Virus record (IMG/VR): IMGVR_UViG_3300037502_002252
Coordinates: 1-30,334 of that record
Source: a virus
Reading direction: 5' to 3' (one strand)
Length of the DNA: 30,334 bases
Below are positions 3,149 to 28,964 of the stretch, one piece after another. The position numbers and the translations under genes were made by a program. Within the stretch, counting starts at the first letter, position 1, and each line of letters begins with the position of its first letter. The notes under the pieces are model-generated. The model was not told the DNA's origin. It ran no database searches and saw only the letters and a program-made list of their open reading frames with translations.

Positions 3149-3327
3149 CGCCGCAAGAAATTGAAAAGGCCGTTTTACGGTGGGAGGACTGGCGGCGGGC
3201 CTTGTATGAGGAACGCGCAGCCATCATGCAATTTCATGGAAACCTGCCGAAGGACGAAGCGGAACGCATGGCGTTCGAGGCGTACAAGCCGCAGCCCAAA
3301 CAAACGCAGGGCCGTTTTGACCTATGA
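3145..3327 (+). CDS. Small charged protein of unknown function (60 aa)
   Basis: Starts at a GTG that overlaps the stop of the membrane protein gene (GTGA), with GGAG six bases ahead. The product is helical and charged (EIEKAVLRWEDWRRALYEE), without recognisable domain; the segment KDEAERMAFEAY suggests a second helix. Its stop overlaps the ATG of the LexA-like gene. No function can be assigned. Confidence 0.55.
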   Translation: MTPQEIEKAVLRWEDWRRALYEERAAIMQFHGNLPKDEAERMAFEAYKPQPKQTQGRFDL

Positions 3328-3560
3328 GTCAAAAAGCACCCACCCAACACCAACTGAAGGTATTGCGTGAAATTGCCGCCCTTACGGTGCGGTGGGGTTA
3401 CCCTCCAACCATTCGGGAGTTGTGTGACGCCTTTGCGGTGTCTTCAACCAATGCAATGGCAGAAACCGTTGGTTACTTAATTGCCAAGGGCCTATTGCGT
3501 CGACGCAGCAAGTTGGCCAGGAGCCTAACATTAACGGACGAAGGCAAAACATTTCTTTGA
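3324..3560 (+). CDS. LexA-like winged-helix protein without peptidase domain
   Basis: 78 residues equal to the N-terminal DNA-binding domain of LexA: QHQLKVLREIAA, GYPPTIRELCDAF, SSTNAMAETVGYLIAKGLL and a wing (ARSLTLTDEG). The S24 self-cleavage domain is absent and the stop follows directly, so the protein cannot undergo RecA-stimulated autocleavage. It may act as a phage repressor or compete with host LexA for SOS operators; the latter is speculation. Last gene of the early regulator chain, ATGA-coupled, with a 152-base gap after it. Confidence 0.75.
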   Translation: MSQKAPTQHQLKVLREIAALTVRWGYPPTIRELCDAFAVSSTNAMAETVGYLIAKGLLRRRSKLARSLTLTDEGKTFL

Positions 3561-3712: not shown

Positions 3713-4609
3713 ATGAGAATACGGACAGTCAAACCGGAGTTTTGGTCTGACGAGAAAACCGGCACGCTTTCAACGGAAGCTGCGCTTTTGTTTCTGGCAA
3801 TGTTCAACTTTGCCGACGACAAAGGCCGCTTAAGGGGTGCCGCCTCACTTTTGAAAGCCCAGGCCTTCCCTTACAAGCCTGAAATTGACGTTGAAACGGC
3901 CTTGAAGGAACTTTTGGCGTCGAAATTGGTGCAAGCCTACAAAACGGCCGGACAGTCGTATTTGGAAATTACCAATTTCTTAAAACATCAGAAAATCAAC
4001 CGTCCAAGCAATCACAACTTAATGCCAGAGCCGGAAGTGTACGAAACCATTCAAGAAAATGAGGACTCATTAGACACTCATGGAGTCCTCAGTGAGTCCT
4101 CAGTGAGTCCTCACGACACACTCATTGAGCCCTCAGTGAGCCCTCACTGCCGGAAGGGAAGGGAAGGGAAGGGAAAGGAAGGGAGTGGAAAGGAAAGGAA
4201 AGGAAAGGAAAAGAAAACTACTTTGTCGCCAAAAAAACCGGCGACCGTGCAAAAAGGCTTTGAAGACAAAAAAACAGAAGACACGCAGACGGCGTCAACC
4301 TTCCAATCGCTTAAAACGGCCCTGGAAGCCTCATACAAGCAAAAACGAGGTGAACCCTACCTATTCGCACACGGTAAGGACGGAAGTGCCTTAAAACGCC
4401 TTATAGGCCTTTATACGCCAAACGTCATTTTGGAGCGTTGGGAGGTGGGTTTGGACGCCGTTGGTTACCGGCAAGTCAATAACGTTGCCCAACTTGCACA
4501 GAAGTGGAACGACCTGGCCGCACCGTCCACACCTGCCAAGCCCACAAGTGTTTACGCAGGCCGCAACATTCCGAACGAATTTTGGCAAACCGTGGAGGAC
4601 GTCCCTTGA
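3713..4609 (+). CDS. Phage replication initiator (O-like), carries the origin in its gene
   Basis: 298 residues. The N-terminus is a winged-helix replisome-organiser domain: IRTVKPEFWSDEKTG, LLFLAMFNFADDKGRLRG, AFPYKP and a later YLEITNFLKHQKINRPS (residues 1-105). A low-complexity linker follows (about 115-180), first Ser-rich with SVSPH twice, then Lys/Glu/Gly-rich; it is encoded by the iterons and homopurine tract. The C-terminus (about 190-298) should contact the loader or helicase. ATG with GGAG ten bases ahead is preferred to an in-frame TTG four codons upstream. The loader gene overlaps the stop (TTGA). Architecture and internal origin parallel lambda gene O, though sequence kinship is not claimed. 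Confidence 0.78.
   Translation: MRIRTVKPEFWSDEKTGTLSTEAALLFLAMFNFADDKGRLRGAASLLKAQAFPYKPEIDVETALKELLASKLVQAYKTAGQSYLEITNFLKHQKINRPSNHNLMPEPEVYETIQENEDSLDTHGVLSESSVSPHDTLIEPSVSPHCRKGREGKGKEGSGKERKGKEKKTTLSPKKPATVQKGFEDKKTEDTQTASTFQSLKTALEASYKQKRGEPYLFAHGKDGSALKRLIGLYTPNVILERWEVGLDAVGYRQVNNVAQLAQKWNDLAAPSTPAKPTSVYAGRNIPNEFWQTVEDVP
4060..4147 (+). repeat. Eight tandem 11-bp iterons, putative replication origin
   Basis: Units begin at 4060, 4071, 4082, 4093, 4104, 4115, 4126 and 4137. The best copies read TGAGTCCTCA or TGAGCCCTCA plus one base; all eight keep CTCA at unit positions 7-10. Units 2 and 6 are the most degenerate. Each good unit is nearly palindromic (TGAG and CTCA flanking two bases). 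The 11-bp pitch places sites on one face of the helix, as expected for initiator binding. Confidence 0.75.
4152..4216 (+). other. Homopurine tract with G-quadruplex motif beside the iterons
   Basis: 65 bases with a single pyrimidine (T at 4186). The first part is GGGAA repeated, giving four GGG runs two bases apart (4156-4173), a canonical quadruplex motif; the second part is GGAAA repeated. The strand asymmetry could favour triplex or unwound DNA and act as the melting element of the origin. Confidence 0.7.
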
Positions 4610-5400
4610 AATTATCAAAAGTCGAGAAATTGGAAGCGTTGGAGCAAGAATTGGCGACATTGTCGAAGTTTACTTTTGACGTGTCACCTTATGAGTATTT
4701 GTCATTTACGCAGAAGCAGGCACTTCGTGAGGACGCAAGGCGCAAGTGGCAGACAGAAAACCCGCAGGAATATGCCCGCCTTCGTGAATTGGAGGCGCAG
4801 GCGGCTTATTTGAAGGCTGAAATTGACGCCGACGACAGAAGGGGCCGTAAGGTAGGTGAAGCAATGGAGTCTTCAGGCGCAAGTGCCCGCGACCTAAAAG
4901 CCTTGAATGCTCTCCACACAACGCCCGCCATTCTTGGCGTCACGGAATGGAACGACAGCAACAAAACGTTTTTGGTGCTGACAGGCGTTCACAACAGTGG
5001 AAAGTCGGTTGCGGCCGCTTATGCCATGTTGGCCCACGTCAAAAGCCTTGAAGAAGCATACCGTGGCGCAGTGCGTTCCATTCGCACCGTCGACATTGCG
5101 CGTTGGTTGTTATTTCGAGGTGATGACGTCACGGAGCGTATTTCAAACTTGCGCCAAGTACCGTTTCTGGTATTGGACGGCCTGGGGTCAGAATTTACAA
5201 ACGACGGAATGCGCCAAACCATGTTCGACATTGTCGACAGTCGGTATGGCGCAAACCGTCCAACGGTGTTGACGTCGACGTTGCCGTTGACGGCTCCAAA
5301 GGGTGTTGACTCTTTGGAATCCGTTTACGGGAATGGGGTTGTTAGTCGACTTCGACGCGAAGGCAAAGTTGTCGTATTGCGGGAGGAAATTGACTTTTAG
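4606..5400 (+). CDS. DnaC-like helicase loader (AAA+ ATPase)
   Basis: 264 residues. The N-terminal 100 residues are helical and should bind the helicase. The ATPase core shows Walker A GVHNSGKS (127-134), Walker B LVLDGLG (188-194), a sensor-like TVLTSTLP and a C-terminal VVSRLRREG with arginines in the DnaC position. The start is a TTG overlapping the initiator stop (TTGA), with GGAGG seven bases before it; an upstream ATG would overlap the initiator gene by about 100 bases. It should load the DnaB-like helicase encoded next onto the origin marked by the initiator. Confidence 0.82.
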   Translation: MKLSKVEKLEALEQELATLSKFTFDVSPYEYLSFTQKQALREDARRKWQTENPQEYARLRELEAQAAYLKAEIDADDRRGRKVGEAMESSGASARDLKALNALHTTPAILGVTEWNDSNKTFLVLTGVHNSGKSVAAAYAMLAHVKSLEEAYRGAVRSIRTVDIARWLLFRGDDVTERISNLRQVPFLVLDGLGSEFTNDGMRQTMFDIVDSRYGANRPTVLTSTLPLTAPKGVDSLESVYGNGVVSRLRREGKVVVLREEIDF

Positions 5401-5412
5401 GGGGCTTCAAAC

Positions 5413-6732
5413 ATGGCAATAGAAAACAAACAGGCAGAAGCCTGGGTGTTGGGTGCTTTACTTGACGGCAACGACGGCGCAACCGGCAAAGCCACCGCTG
5501 ACTTAATTGCGGCCAGTGGCTTGAAGGCCAATGACTTTCACTTCAAGGCCCCGCGGCTTTGCTTTGAAGTCATGGAAAAGTGCCTGAAACAAGGCATTGC
5601 GCCCACCATCAAAAACCTACTGACGCACGCAAACAATGACTTGGGTGGGTTGACGCTTGAACGCCTGTTGTCATTGAAAAACACCAACGCACTGACGTTT
5701 GACGAATTCATGACGCAAACGCAGGAGTTGCGGCGGCTTGCGCAACTGCGTGACGCGGCCAAATTTTTGACAGAAGAAAAAGTCAGTAAGGCGACCAAAC
5801 GGGAGGAATTGGCCACCAAATTTGGCACCTACGCTGAAAGCCTGGCAGTCACCAACGAAGTGGACGAAGTTGGAAGTGTTGACTTGCACGAATTGTGCGA
5901 CACCTGGCAACAAAACATTGTTAACGGTGCGTCACCTTTCATTGCCACTGGCGTCAAAGTGTTGGACGAAGCAATCAACGGTTTTGTGCCCAACTTAAAC
6001 GTTATTGGCGGGTTGCCGTCCGTGGGTAAGTCGGCATTGGTGGCTGAAATTGTTTACAACGTCCTTTCCAGGGGTGTGCCTTGTGGTTTTTTCGGCCTTG
6101 AAGACGCGACCGCCTGGATTGCCAAACGGCACATGGCAAGACAAATGAAGTTGAAAGTGTGGGAAGTTGGCTTTCGGCGACTGAACGAAATGCAAATGGA
6201 GGCAATGCAAACCGTTGCCGGTGAGTTGGACGAAAAATTGCGCCTGATGACGGTGTTTCGACGTGCCGGAATTTCCGCTGACGAATTAATCAGCAGGGCA
6301 CGAAGTTGGATTGTCAACCGTGGCGTCAAGTGCGTCTTTATTGACCACGGCGGTGAAGTTAACCACGGCACCAACATGCGTGACAGGTATGACTTGGCAG
6401 TTGCCAACACCTACAGGGCACTTCGTGACTTGGCAATCAACTACAAGGTGCCGGTGGTTGTATTGGCGCACTTCAACCGGCAGACAGGTGACGGCATGCC
6501 AACCATGCGGAGTTTTGCGGAGTCAGAATACATTGCACGCATGGCCCGCTTGGCGTTGGGTTTGTGGAGGCACCCAACGACACAAAAGTTGGAATGCACC
6601 ATTTTGAAGCAAACCGAAGGCCGCAAGGGCGACACAGTGGAATTGGAAATGGACGTTGACGCTGCGCTTGTGAAGAGTGAAGGCGGCAGGCTTATGGAGT
6701 ACAGGGACTTGGAAGTGACTTATGGAAATTGA
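5413..6732 (+). CDS. dnaB: DnaB-like replicative helicase
   Basis: 439 residues. The N-terminal domain (about 1-110) resembles DnaB-N (AWVLGALLDG). The RecA-like core begins at FIATGVKVLDEAINGF and contains Walker A GGLPSVGKS (199-207), Walker B VKCVFIDHGG (306-314) and the motif VVVLAHFNRQ with its arginine and glutamine. The phage thus brings its own replicative motor; a polymerase or separate primase is not encoded, so those come from the host. A GGGGG ribosome site lies before the ATG, twelve bases after the loader stop, and the next gene overlaps by eleven bases. Confidence 0.9.
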   Translation: MAIENKQAEAWVLGALLDGNDGATGKATADLIAASGLKANDFHFKAPRLCFEVMEKCLKQGIAPTIKNLLTHANNDLGGLTLERLLSLKNTNALTFDEFMTQTQELRRLAQLRDAAKFLTEEKVSKATKREELATKFGTYAESLAVTNEVDEVGSVDLHELCDTWQQNIVNGASPFIATGVKVLDEAINGFVPNLNVIGGLPSVGKSALVAEIVYNVLSRGVPCGFFGLEDATAWIAKRHMARQMKLKVWEVGFRRLNEMQMEAMQTVAGELDEKLRLMTVFRRAGISADELISRARSWIVNRGVKCVFIDHGGEVNHGTNMRDRYDLAVANTYRALRDLAINYKVPVVVLAHFNRQTGDGMPTMRSFAESEYIARMARLALGLWRHPTTQKLECTILKQTEGRKGDTVELEMDVDAALVKSEGGRLMEYRDLEVTYGN

Positions 6733-12467: not shown

Positions 12468-12968
12468 ATGGCTGACACGGCTTCAATTTTAGTTATTGAC
12501 CAGACAAGTCCCTTGGACATCGGGACGCGCAACAGCAAAGACGCATTGGAAATCATTCGGAATTACATGAACGGCGCACTTGGCGGCAACAAACGCGTCA
12601 ACAGCATTCGCGTGTTTCCAGACGGCACGGACAACGTTTATGCGTCCGGCACCGTCACAATTGCGTCCGGCTCTGGCACAGTGTCAATTACCATTAACGG
12701 TGTTGCAATCAGTCGCACATGGGCAACTTCAGACACTGCAACCGCCACGGCCTTTGTGAGTGACATTAACGGCAGCACCAACGCATTGGTGAAAAACCAC
12801 GTTGCAGCCACGTCGGCGGCAGGCGTTGTCACTATTACCGCCAAGGCACCTGGCCAATGGGGCAATGCGGTGACGCTGGCAGCGGCTGGCACGGGCATGA
12901 CCGCTTCCGGTGCCCGATTGACAAGCGGCGCAGGCGCAGACACTGCGGCCGTCACCATTTCACTTTAA
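12468..12968 (+). CDS. Virion structural protein, possible head decoration
   Basis: 166 residues, the first half with an N-terminal helix (DALEIIRNYMNGALGG), the second rich in beta strands and Ala/Thr/Ser: GTVTIASGSGTVSITINGV, then DTATATAFVSDING and APGQWGNAVTLAA. This repeat style is known in tail-sheath-like and other virion beta domains. Place directly behind the capsid gene suggests a decoration or head-surface protein. GAGGT lies before the ATG. Function is inferred. Confidence 0.6.
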   Translation: MADTASILVIDQTSPLDIGTRNSKDALEIIRNYMNGALGGNKRVNSIRVFPDGTDNVYASGTVTIASGSGTVSITINGVAISRTWATSDTATATAFVSDINGSTNALVKNHVAATSAAGVVTITAKAPGQWGNAVTLAAAGTGMTASGARLTSGAGADTAAVTISL

Positions 12969-22729: not shown

Positions 22730-24820
22730 ATGAAACCACAGGACTATTGGGCACTTGCCCCAAAGGACGAAATTGGTGGTCGCATTTTCGACAAGGTGCG
22801 CCAATATCACGATTTCCTGCGCCATTCTGGACGCCTGGAAAAAATTCGAAAAAGCTTTGCCATTATGTCCGGCGGCAGCGTCGACGGCACTGGAAAAGTG
22901 TCTTGGGAAGTCTCACGCAGTGGTGAGCAAGGCGAGTTGCTTGTTACCGCTGAAAACCATTATCGAAACATTGGCAACAACTTGGTAACGCTCATCACCG
23001 CCCAGCGTCCAACCATTCAAGTGAAGGCAGCAAACACGGACGCCAAAAGCCTTAGTCAAACGCTTGTGGCTGACGGATTGCTTGACCAGTATTTGACGGA
23101 AAGAAAACTGGAAACACACCTGAAGAAAGCCGCCAAAAACGCGGTGTTTTTGTCTGAAGGCTTTGTTGCCATTTTTTGGGACGCTCAAGGCGGTGAAGAC
23201 ATGGGCCCCGCGCCAGAGTCATTGGACGCGTTGTTGGCCGGTGAAAGTGTGCCGACACTTAAAAGCGGTGACATTGTTTCCGTGCCTTTGGGGCCTTTGG
23301 ACGTTATACGCGACACTTGCGGCACTTCGTGGGACGCCTTGGAATGGGTGGTTTTGCGCACCTTTGAAAACCGTTTTGAATTGGCTGCGCGTTACCCTGA
23401 CATGGCTGAAAGCATTCTGGCAAAGTCAGACAGAAGTGAAACCGAAGGCCTTGGTTATTTTGGACGCAAGAATGCTACGGACTTGGTGGCACATTACACG
23501 TTTGTGCATAAGAAGACGCGGGCGGTGCCACAGGGGCGGCTTGTTCAACTCTTAGGCGAAGACTGTGTGTTGTTTGACGGTGGAAGCCCTTATTCGGACT
23601 TGCCAGTGTACCGTGTTGTTCCTGACGACATTGAAGGCACAGCCTTTGGCGACACCCAAATGTGGGACTTAATGGGGCCACAGGACGCAATCAACGCCAT
23701 TGATTCAACAATTATCACCAACGAATTGGGCCGCGGCATTGGAAACATTTTGGTGCCGCGCACTGCCAACATTTCGGTTGAAGCCCTTTCTTCGTCAATG
23801 AATGAAGTCAAATATGACGGCCAACAAAAGCCAGAGCCACTTATGTGGCCTTCAACGCCGCCTGAATTTTTCGCCTACAAGCGTGAAAAAATTAGCGCAA
23901 TGGAAGTGTTGTCAGGCGTCAACAGCGTTGTCCGTGGCGCACCTTCCCAGGCGGTGGGTGCTGACGCGTCAGGCGCAAAGTTAACCTTTATTCAAGCGCA
24001 GGCCATTCAAAGCAATAGCAACCTGGAAAAGTCTTATGCCGACTTGGTGCGGGACGTATGTTTGGCCATTTTGCACCGCTTCCGTGACTTTGGAGGCCAA
24101 TTCCCGCGCATGGCCCGCATGGTTGGCAAGGCTTCCAGTTTCATGGTGAAGGAATTTACCGCAGACGACTTGCAGAGTATTGAGCGCGTCAAAGTGGACG
24201 TTGGAAGTCCCGTCATGCGCACCGTGTCCGGCCGCATGGCCATTGCAGACAAGTTGGTTGAAATGGGTGTCATTAACCCCAACGTGCCAGGCGCGGCAGA
24301 ACAATACCTTATGTTGGTGAAGGCAGGCACGTACGAGCCGTTGGTTGAAAACAGCCAAACCCAACAAATGCGCATTCGCATGGAAAACGAACGCCTTATG
24401 GAGGGCGGTGACGTGACGGCCTTGGTGTCTGACCCACACTGGCTTGAAATCAGCCAACACTTGTCATTGTTGGACAACCCGTCCCTTCGTGAGCCAACGC
24501 CCGAAAACGAAGCAATCCAGGCGGCGGTGTTGTCTCACGTCCAAACGCACATTGAGTTTATGCGCACCGCAGACCCGTTGCTTGTGGCCCTTCGAGGTGG
24601 CCCGCAGGCCATGCAACTGTTGCAACTTGCGCAAAACCCGCAGCCTACGCCGTCGTTGGCGCAAGGTGCCGCCCCAATGTCGCCTGACACGGGCGGCGGT
24701 GAAGCAATCAACCCCGAAGCGTCACGGCCCAACATGCCCGGCATGCCTTCCATGCCCCGCAGGCCTGACACTGGTGAAGTCGCCGAATTACCCGCAGCCC
24801 CACCCCAAGGAATAGCATGA
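22730..24820 (+). CDS. Portal protein
   Basis: 696 residues, the ring at the head vertex through which DNA passes. Typical podoviral portal features: ENHYRNIGNNLVTLITAQRP near the start, AVFLSEGFVAIFWDAQ, VPLGPLDVIRD, a long central helix region with MGPQDAINAIDSTIITNELG, and the tunnel-loop area ASGAKLTFIQAQAIQSNSNLEKSYADLVRD. The C-terminal 70 residues are Pro/Gly/Ala-rich and disordered. Start with AAAGG ahead. The scaffold gene overlaps its stop (ATGA). Its place behind the ejection genes, far from terminase, is unusual. Confidence 0.85.
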   Translation: MKPQDYWALAPKDEIGGRIFDKVRQYHDFLRHSGRLEKIRKSFAIMSGGSVDGTGKVSWEVSRSGEQGELLVTAENHYRNIGNNLVTLITAQRPTIQVKAANTDAKSLSQTLVADGLLDQYLTERKLETHLKKAAKNAVFLSEGFVAIFWDAQGGEDMGPAPESLDALLAGESVPTLKSGDIVSVPLGPLDVIRDTCGTSWDALEWVVLRTFENRFELAARYPDMAESILAKSDRSETEGLGYFGRKNATDLVAHYTFVHKKTRAVPQGRLVQLLGEDCVLFDGGSPYSDLPVYRVVPDDIEGTAFGDTQMWDLMGPQDAINAIDSTIITNELGRGIGNILVPRTANISVEALSSSMNEVKYDGQQKPEPLMWPSTPPEFFAYKREKISAMEVLSGVNSVVRGAPSQAVGADASGAKLTFIQAQAIQSNSNLEKSYADLVRDVCLAILHRFRDFGGQFPRMARMVGKASSFMVKEFTADDLQSIERVKVDVGSPVMRTVSGRMAIADKLVEMGVINPNVPGAAEQYLMLVKAGTYEPLVENSQTQQMRIRMENERLMEGGDVTALVSDPHWLEISQHLSLLDNPSLREPTPENEAIQAAVLSHVQTHIEFMRTADPLLVALRGGPQAMQLLQLAQNPQPTPSLAQGAAPMSPDTGGGEAINPEASRPNMPGMPSMPRRPDTGEVAELPAAPPQGIA

Positions 24821-28463: not shown

Positions 28464-28964
28464 ATGTTGTTACTTGCCCAAGCAGAAGCGTCCTTTGACT
28501 TTGCGGCCATTTTCAAAACCCTATTGGAAGCCGTCAAAAGCGGTGATTGGGTGGCGGTTGCCGCTGCGGTGTTGGTGTTGGTGGTTGCCGCCATTCGAGT
28601 GTACGGCCAAAAAGTCCGTGGCGAGTTGCCGGACAACACCTTGGTTGACAAGGCCTTGACGTGGCTTTTGGAGTCCAAGCCAGGCGGTTGGGTGCTTAAC
28701 ATTTTGACAGCGTTGGCCGGTGCCTTTGCCACTGCGTTGTTGGCAGGTGCGCCCATAACCTTTGGACTTGTCAAAGCCGCCCTGTTGACGGCGTTGTCAG
28801 GTGCCGCCCTTTGGGAGTTGGTGAAGGACGTTTTGGCTTGGTGGGCTTCCAGGCAGGCTTTGGAGGCAGGCGCAAAGGCTGCGGCGGGCATTGGCGACAG
28901 CAAAGCCGCGGTGGTTGCCATTAACGAGCGCACCAAAACGCAGCCAGAAAACAAGGCCCCGTGA
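28464..28964 (+). CDS. Putative holin
   Basis: 166 residues with about three membrane spans: near 30-47 (WVAVAAAVLVLVVAAIRV) and two in 76-118 (VLNILTALAGAFATALLAG, FGLVKAALLTALSGAALW). A hydrophilic charged C-terminal tail (KAAVVAINERTKTQ) fits cytoplasmic regulation. GGAGG eight bases before the ATG and immediate position after the endolysin gene support the call. Charged residues between spans are few. Confidence 0.65.
   Translation: MLLLAQAEASFDFAAIFKTLLEAVKSGDWVAVAAAVLVLVVAAIRVYGQKVRGELPDNTLVDKALTWLLESKPGGWVLNILTALAGAFATALLAGAPITFGLVKAALLTALSGAALWELVKDVLAWWASRQALEAGAKAAAGIGDSKAAVVAINERTKTQPENKAP

Follow-up and report, generated by a model that had tools for sequence, protein, structure and literature searches.

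We suggest that the virus DNA analysed here, a 30,334-bp record (IMGVR_UViG_3300037502_002252, positions 1 to 30,334; the window), carries a replication origin inside the gene of its own initiator. The segment at 4060-4217, in which an array of phased dyads is followed by a purine tract, very probably has origin activity, and the reading we consider most likely is an in-gene origin that works like that of phage lambda although the initiator is not detectably homologous to lambda O. In this model, the N-terminal domain of the initiator, probably in the form of dimers, would bind the TGA-N4-TCA dyads, with Asn96 reading the outer A-T pair; the association of this residue with this base is observed, and the contact is predicted from it. 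With one unit per helical turn, the bound proteins would share one face of the DNA in a wrapped or bent complex. By analogy to lambda, strain may then open the DNA at or beside the adjoining strand-asymmetric purine tract, and the C-terminal domain would recruit the DnaC-like loader and the DnaB-like helicase encoded just downstream. DNA signals would be tolerated inside the gene because the protein sequence of the linker is free to vary. The features on which the model builds are as follows.

3713-4609, plus strand: initiator gene P0001, 298 aa, ATG start at 3713 (PHROG replication initiation families)
3713-4042, plus strand: N-terminal winged-helix domain of the initiator, codons 1-110 (AlphaFold2 model; conserved in 333 distinct relatives)
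3998-4000, plus strand: codon of Asn96, the residue directly after KHQKI, which predicts the outer base of the dyad (residue-dyad association)
4060-4147, plus strand: eight 11-bp iterons with the dyad TGA-N4-TCA once per helical turn (direct reading, repeat analysis)
4060-4069, plus strand: perfect dyad TGAGGACTCA of unit 1, TGAGGACTCAT, which starts at 4060
From 4071, plus strand: unit 2, TAGACACTCAT
From 4082, plus strand: unit 3, GGAGTCCTCAG
4093-4102, plus strand: perfect dyad TGAGTCCTCA of unit 4, TGAGTCCTCAG, which starts at 4093
4104-4113, plus strand: perfect dyad TGAGTCCTCA of unit 5, TGAGTCCTCAC, which starts at 4104
From 4115, plus strand: unit 6, GACACACTCAT
4126-4135, plus strand: perfect dyad TGAGCCCTCA of unit 7, TGAGCCCTCAG, which starts at 4126
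4137-4146, plus strand: perfect dyad TGAGCCCTCA of unit 8, TGAGCCCTCAC, which starts at 4137
4152-4217, plus strand: coding-strand purine tract, 66 nt, encoding a K/R/E/G-rich linker (composition; position and polarity kept in relatives)
4283-4606, plus strand: C-terminal part of the initiator, codons 191-298 (phrog_8130 match, residues 198-285)
4606-5400, plus strand: DnaC-like helicase loader (phrog_50, E 2.4e-14; IstB_IS21 below cutoff)
5413-6732, plus strand: DnaB-like replicative helicase (DnaB_C, E 3.4e-26; phrog_19, E 1.1e-41)

The original prediction had placed the repeats in an initiator gene followed by DnaC- and DnaB-like genes, and the profile matches agree with this. P0001 consists, in order, of the N-domain, an unstructured-looking linker that is encoded by array and tract and is enriched in P, G, S, T, K and E, and the C-domain. 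By its N-domain (E 8.8e-31, 5.4e-30 and 3.8e-28, respectively), the protein is a member of the PHROG families phrog_16167, phrog_1408 and phrog_2149, which carry annotation only; in open-licence PMC papers, we found no description of an origin or binding site for them. An AlphaFold2 model of residues 1-110 (55 aligned rows; mean pLDDT 90.4, pTM 0.81) is a winged helix with an extra strand at 93-95 (QKI) and an N-terminal strand at 4-6. We infer, without recourse to coordinates, that these two strands form a pair, and the DNA-reading surface may be made up of R2, R4 and KHQKI, all conserved, together with residue 96. Fold matches in the PDB are weak (best E 0.006), with plasmid RepA initiators and centromere-binding proteins among them, and no sequence relatives of the N-domain were found there. 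The C-terminal part, for which no relative was found among the fetched loci, is presumed from the layout of lambda O to contact the helicase or its loader. Just upstream of the initiator, at 3324-3560, the window encodes a LexA-type winged-helix protein, a candidate regulator, and on the minus strand at 49-2152 a recombination pair composed of a PD-(D/E)XK exonuclease and an Erf-like single-strand annealing protein.

Direct reading of the array confirms that CTCA is shared at a constant place in 8/8 units and that six of the eight are near TGAGYCCTCA. The complete units are palindromic 10-bp dyads, TGAG-NN-CTCA (core TGA-N4-TCA), with 1 bp between neighbours; thus, the repeats had been described correctly, while the dyad symmetry of the complete units and the adjoining purine tract had been missed. 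Perfect TGAGNNCTCA dyads occur five times in the whole window, and all five are inside the array. In the best 88-nt stretch, 51 of 77 comparisons at lag 11 are identities, while synonymous recodings that preserve the initiator protein and use the phage's own codon usage have 31.5 on average and 42 at most, so that none of the 2000 reaches the array score. Moreover, the units are distributed over all three reading frames. The recoding and the frames both bear out the claim that selection acts here on DNA and not on protein repetition. Elsewhere in the window, short tandem duplications at 12641-12680, 23726-23778 and 28540-28591 have periods of 21, 24 and 27, respectively, and are probably protein repeats because these periods are multiples of three.

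The arrangement extends to relatives in several phyla. We collected 605 loci from viral contigs, GTDB genomes and one Pseudomonadota sample, 333 of them with distinct linker DNA, and the architecture they have in common is a winged-helix N-domain ending in KHQKI, followed by phased dyads, the purine tract and a C-domain, usually with DnaC, DnaB or lambda-P as the next genes. Once the purine tract was masked, tandem periodicity 3' of the N-domain was significant in 59 of a first set of 98 representatives (reached by at most 2 of 100 synonymous shuffles), the best lag being 11 in 30, 10 in 8, 21-22 in 7, 12 in 5 and 7 in 7. Successive perfect dyads are spaced by 10 bp (105 cases; the dyads abut), 11 bp (109; one base between dyads), 20-22 bp (51) or 30-33 bp (13), and 270 of 291 spacings differ by no more than 1 bp from a multiple of 10.5 bp, for which 24% would be expected if spacings were uniform. 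Altogether, the array regions of the relatives contain 534 dyads, while 107 +/- 8 are expected from synonymous shuffling. Dyads were assignable in 222 of the 333 distinct relatives, and 54 of the other 111 have significant tandem periodicity, mostly of 10-11 bp; relatives in which the initiator is intact but periodic units are lacking, named beforehand as a refuting result, are thus not the usual case. Named relatives include phages of Mycobacterium, Gordonia, Streptomyces, Klebsiella and Marinomonas. In mycobacteriophage Miko, which is absent among the matches listed for the named relatives, the repA region alone is sufficient for replication (PMC7157519). In four loci (L124, L138, L384, L627), an HNH-nuclease-like segment after the N-domain replaces or precedes the array.

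Extra phased dyads are also present inside the part of the gene coding for the N-domain (282 versus 65 +/- 7 expected from synonymous shuffling), specifically in L042 and about 40 other loci at nt 44-75 and 160-220 of the initiator CDS (e.g. L290, L336, L607); the window gene does not have them. Such dyads, some of which are near the gene start, would fit an in-gene operator by which the initiator represses or pauses its own transcription while replication starts elsewhere, and binding of the gene's own product to an in-gene array would lower expression. However, nearly all phased pairs beyond the main region are still within the initiator gene and not in its promoter, some eight units and a purine tract with constant position and polarity are more than an operator needs, and the genes that come next are those for a helicase loader and a helicase. 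We consider an operator without origin function improbable.

Lambda and pSK41-type plasmids are known precedents for an origin within an initiator gene (PMC5043065, PMC5703833). The description of the window origin as lambda-like holds for layout and, probably, for mechanism; it does not extend to homology, of which none was detected between lambda O and either the N half or the C half of P0001. The order shared with lambda gene O is an N-terminal DNA-binding part, dyad iterons in mid-gene, an asymmetric 3' tract, a C-domain and a loader gene (PMC5043065). The iterons themselves differ, with eight 10-bp dyads at an 11-bp period in the window and four 18-bp iterons, about 20-24 bp apart, in lambda. 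In three relatives (L187, L365, L397), a lambda O C-terminal domain follows the window-type N-domain (E 1e-12 to 3e-5), and many loci encode lambda P homologues directly downstream of the initiator. Among the downstream ORFs scanned (n=59), we found 20 DnaB, 9 IstB/DnaC-like ATPases and 4 Toprim proteins. The lambda O C-domain fusions, together with the lambda P and helicase or loader neighbours, are the strongest indirect argument for a replication-initiating role of the family. A pooled skew test for a replication start at the array in relatives was nearly flat; third-position GC skew rises across the initiator gene in 54% of loci, and the rise is minute (0.019, p 0.026).

Two groups of plasmids also resemble the window. 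RepA_N plasmids (pSK41, pTZ2162) have their origin centrally in the rep gene, where the window likewise has its repeats, a winged-helix N-domain that binds semi-palindromic iterons, and a host-specific C-domain (PMC5703833, PMC7145576). The PDB entries 4pt7, 4pql and 5kbj have a weak fold likeness to the window N-domain (E about 0.008 to 0.08); by contrast, the dyads are different, the purine tract is an addition of the window, and the window protein has no Pfam match to RepA_N (PF06970). In Rep_3 iteron plasmids, helically phased direct repeats are beside the region to be opened (PMC5043065), as would be the case in the window, whereas in described cases the iterons are outside the rep gene and bind monomers; the window protein has no Pfam match to Rep_3 either. 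The fold matches to the centromere-binding winged-helix proteins TubR, AspA and a pNOB8 protein, weak as they are, bear on the idea that the array is an initiator-bound partition or incompatibility site, acting like a centromere or by handcuffing, and that the strands open elsewhere. Centromeres typically have tandem phased sites, too. Nevertheless, the N-domains of plasmid RepA initiators give matches that are no weaker, the scanned ORFs of the window include no recognisable par genes, and the lambda O C-domain is present in some relatives, a lambda P gene in others, all of which makes a partition site very improbable.

That the initiator itself binds the dyads is in our judgement close to certain, and the residue directly after KHQKI gives indirect support for it. 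In the first set, residue 96 fully separates TCA-type from TCG-type iterons (29/29 with Asn, 28/28 with Asp/Glu). Among all initiators with an assignable dyad, the 56 with Asn96 have TGA in 54 cases, CGA in one and GGA in one; the 146 with Asp96 have CGA in 144, AGA in one and GGA in one; and Glu96 goes with CGA in 13/13, so that Asp and Glu together go with CGA/TCG in 157 of 159. Ser96 is found with GGA/TCC in 5/5. Shuffled regions contain 0.04-0.12 dyads each as background. Of the entropy of the TGA/CGA class, 96% is accounted for by residue 96, compared to 68% for the next-best columns, 13 and 15. Contacts between Asn and adenine and between Asp or Glu and cytosine are chemically ordinary. 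On a tree built without column 96, the residue changes 12 times, and of 12 path-independent pairs 11-12 are concordant and none is opposite. Because the N-domain is short, well-supported branches carry only 2-3 of these independent pairs, so that shared descent becomes a less likely but not a negligible explanation of the association. The closest contrast is between L005 (Asn, TGA) and L290 (Asp, CGA), which are 70% identical.

The residue rule also held out of sample, where the sequences of all 11 assignable named phages fit it. Asn occurs with TGA-type arrays in Kp4865-4, Austintatious, Alderaan, P12026, Gsput1, pMLP1 and PSonyx, the class of Gsput1 and pMLP1 being taken from the array itself because CGA/TCG words outside it tie the simple count, and Asp occurs with CGA-type arrays in Phrann, Bernal13, PFR1 and SOVA965. 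Tyrion, phi13.3 and Vibrio 1.176 have Asn with other units. Exceptions to the rule are L134, L372, L455, the HNH fusion L384, and L114/L115 (Asp with TCA-type units). A separate subfamily with His for residue 96 (HQxPH), comprising L614 (JBD44), L620 (Louie, which infects E. coli) and L624 (IFTN1), has GTGCAAG/GCACCATGC-type units, with a spacing of about 11 bp in IFTN1. Binding of the dyads by another protein, i.e. a host or phage repressor for which the location in the initiator gene would be incidental, could draw on the LexA-like protein encoded nearby at 3324-3560; however, the dyad sequence tracks the initiator's own residue 96 across the 333 distinct relatives, and we regard this explanation as highly unlikely.

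The second element of the proposed origin, the purine tract, begins in the window 4 nt past the last unit, as GGAAGGGAAGGGAAGGG..., and contains a single T as its sole pyrimidine. Its two purine runs measure 34 and 31 nt, and the longest such run elsewhere in the window has 16. The first 40 nt are 97.5% purine but only 45% A+T, and the duplex is only moderately weak (90th percentile of the window). In the 50 periodic representatives, the median distance from array to tract is 5 nt, and in 39 of them it does not exceed 20 nt. Across 222 initiators, the 40 nt just 3' of the last dyad rank in the gene's top 5% by purine content in 78% of cases, by duplex weakness in 23% and by A+T in 8%, and 55% of these segments are under half A+T. 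We therefore reject low duplex stability as the conserved property of the tract; this property is strand asymmetry, not A+T richness. The asymmetry has a fixed polarity. Past the N-domain, the longest asymmetric stretch is coding-strand purine in 306 relatives and pyrimidine in 20, while within the N-domain part the numbers are 110 and 161, respectively. The lambda tract is described, in the part of PMC5043065 that cites Schnos 1988, as both A+T rich and strand asymmetric, and it has 77.5% A+T versus the 45% of the window tract; thus, only the asymmetry is general in the window family. By analogy to lambda, we lean slightly towards the tract being the segment at which the strands open or the helicase is loaded. 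Repetition or low complexity of the protein alone, in a disordered linker without any DNA function, to which the linker composition and the K/R/E/G runs encoded by the tract might point, has a negligible probability and is rejected as the cause of the array, because neither 10 nor 11, the periods concerned, is divisible by three, the dyads occupy all three frames, the signal is lost on synonymous recoding, and the N-domain part is without purine polarity.

Taking the dyads and the tract together, we tentatively speculate that they define a phylum-spanning class of in-gene origins, in which the residue after KHQKI sets the outer base of the dyad by way of the KHQKI strand and the N-terminal arm instead of a canonical recognition helix; purine asymmetry beside the dyads, and not A+T richness, would mark the element that opens, perhaps as a co-transcriptional RNA-DNA hybrid. 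On balance, we would sooner doubt this generalisation than rely on it. In open-licence PMC papers, we found no literature on the origin of this family, the residue-base rule or a general purine tract. As far as the searched papers go, three points are new: the arrays of 10-bp dyads, phased at one turn, across phyla in this initiator family; the residue-base rule; and the distinction drawn between strand asymmetry and A+T content. For hundreds of phages and prophages whose replication is uncharacterised, an origin is thereby predicted at the base-pair level. The rule, which links one initiator residue to one origin base, is testable and could predict cross-talk and incompatibility between phages. 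Finally, the question of origin melting is reopened, since A+T richness and asymmetry coincide in the lambda tract, while our survey separates them and finds the asymmetry to be conserved.

The tract region also varies. In the Bacteroidota loci L138 and L148, long 12-bp tandem arrays (ATTCTACGATTG; CTCGACGAACGA) precede the purine tract, and protein repetition could contribute to these because their period is a multiple of three. In one group of the CGA class (L127, L154, L159, L162, L179, L192, L205 and L232), 7-bp repeats such as GGACCTA or GGATCAA are present in the linker region in place of the purine tract.
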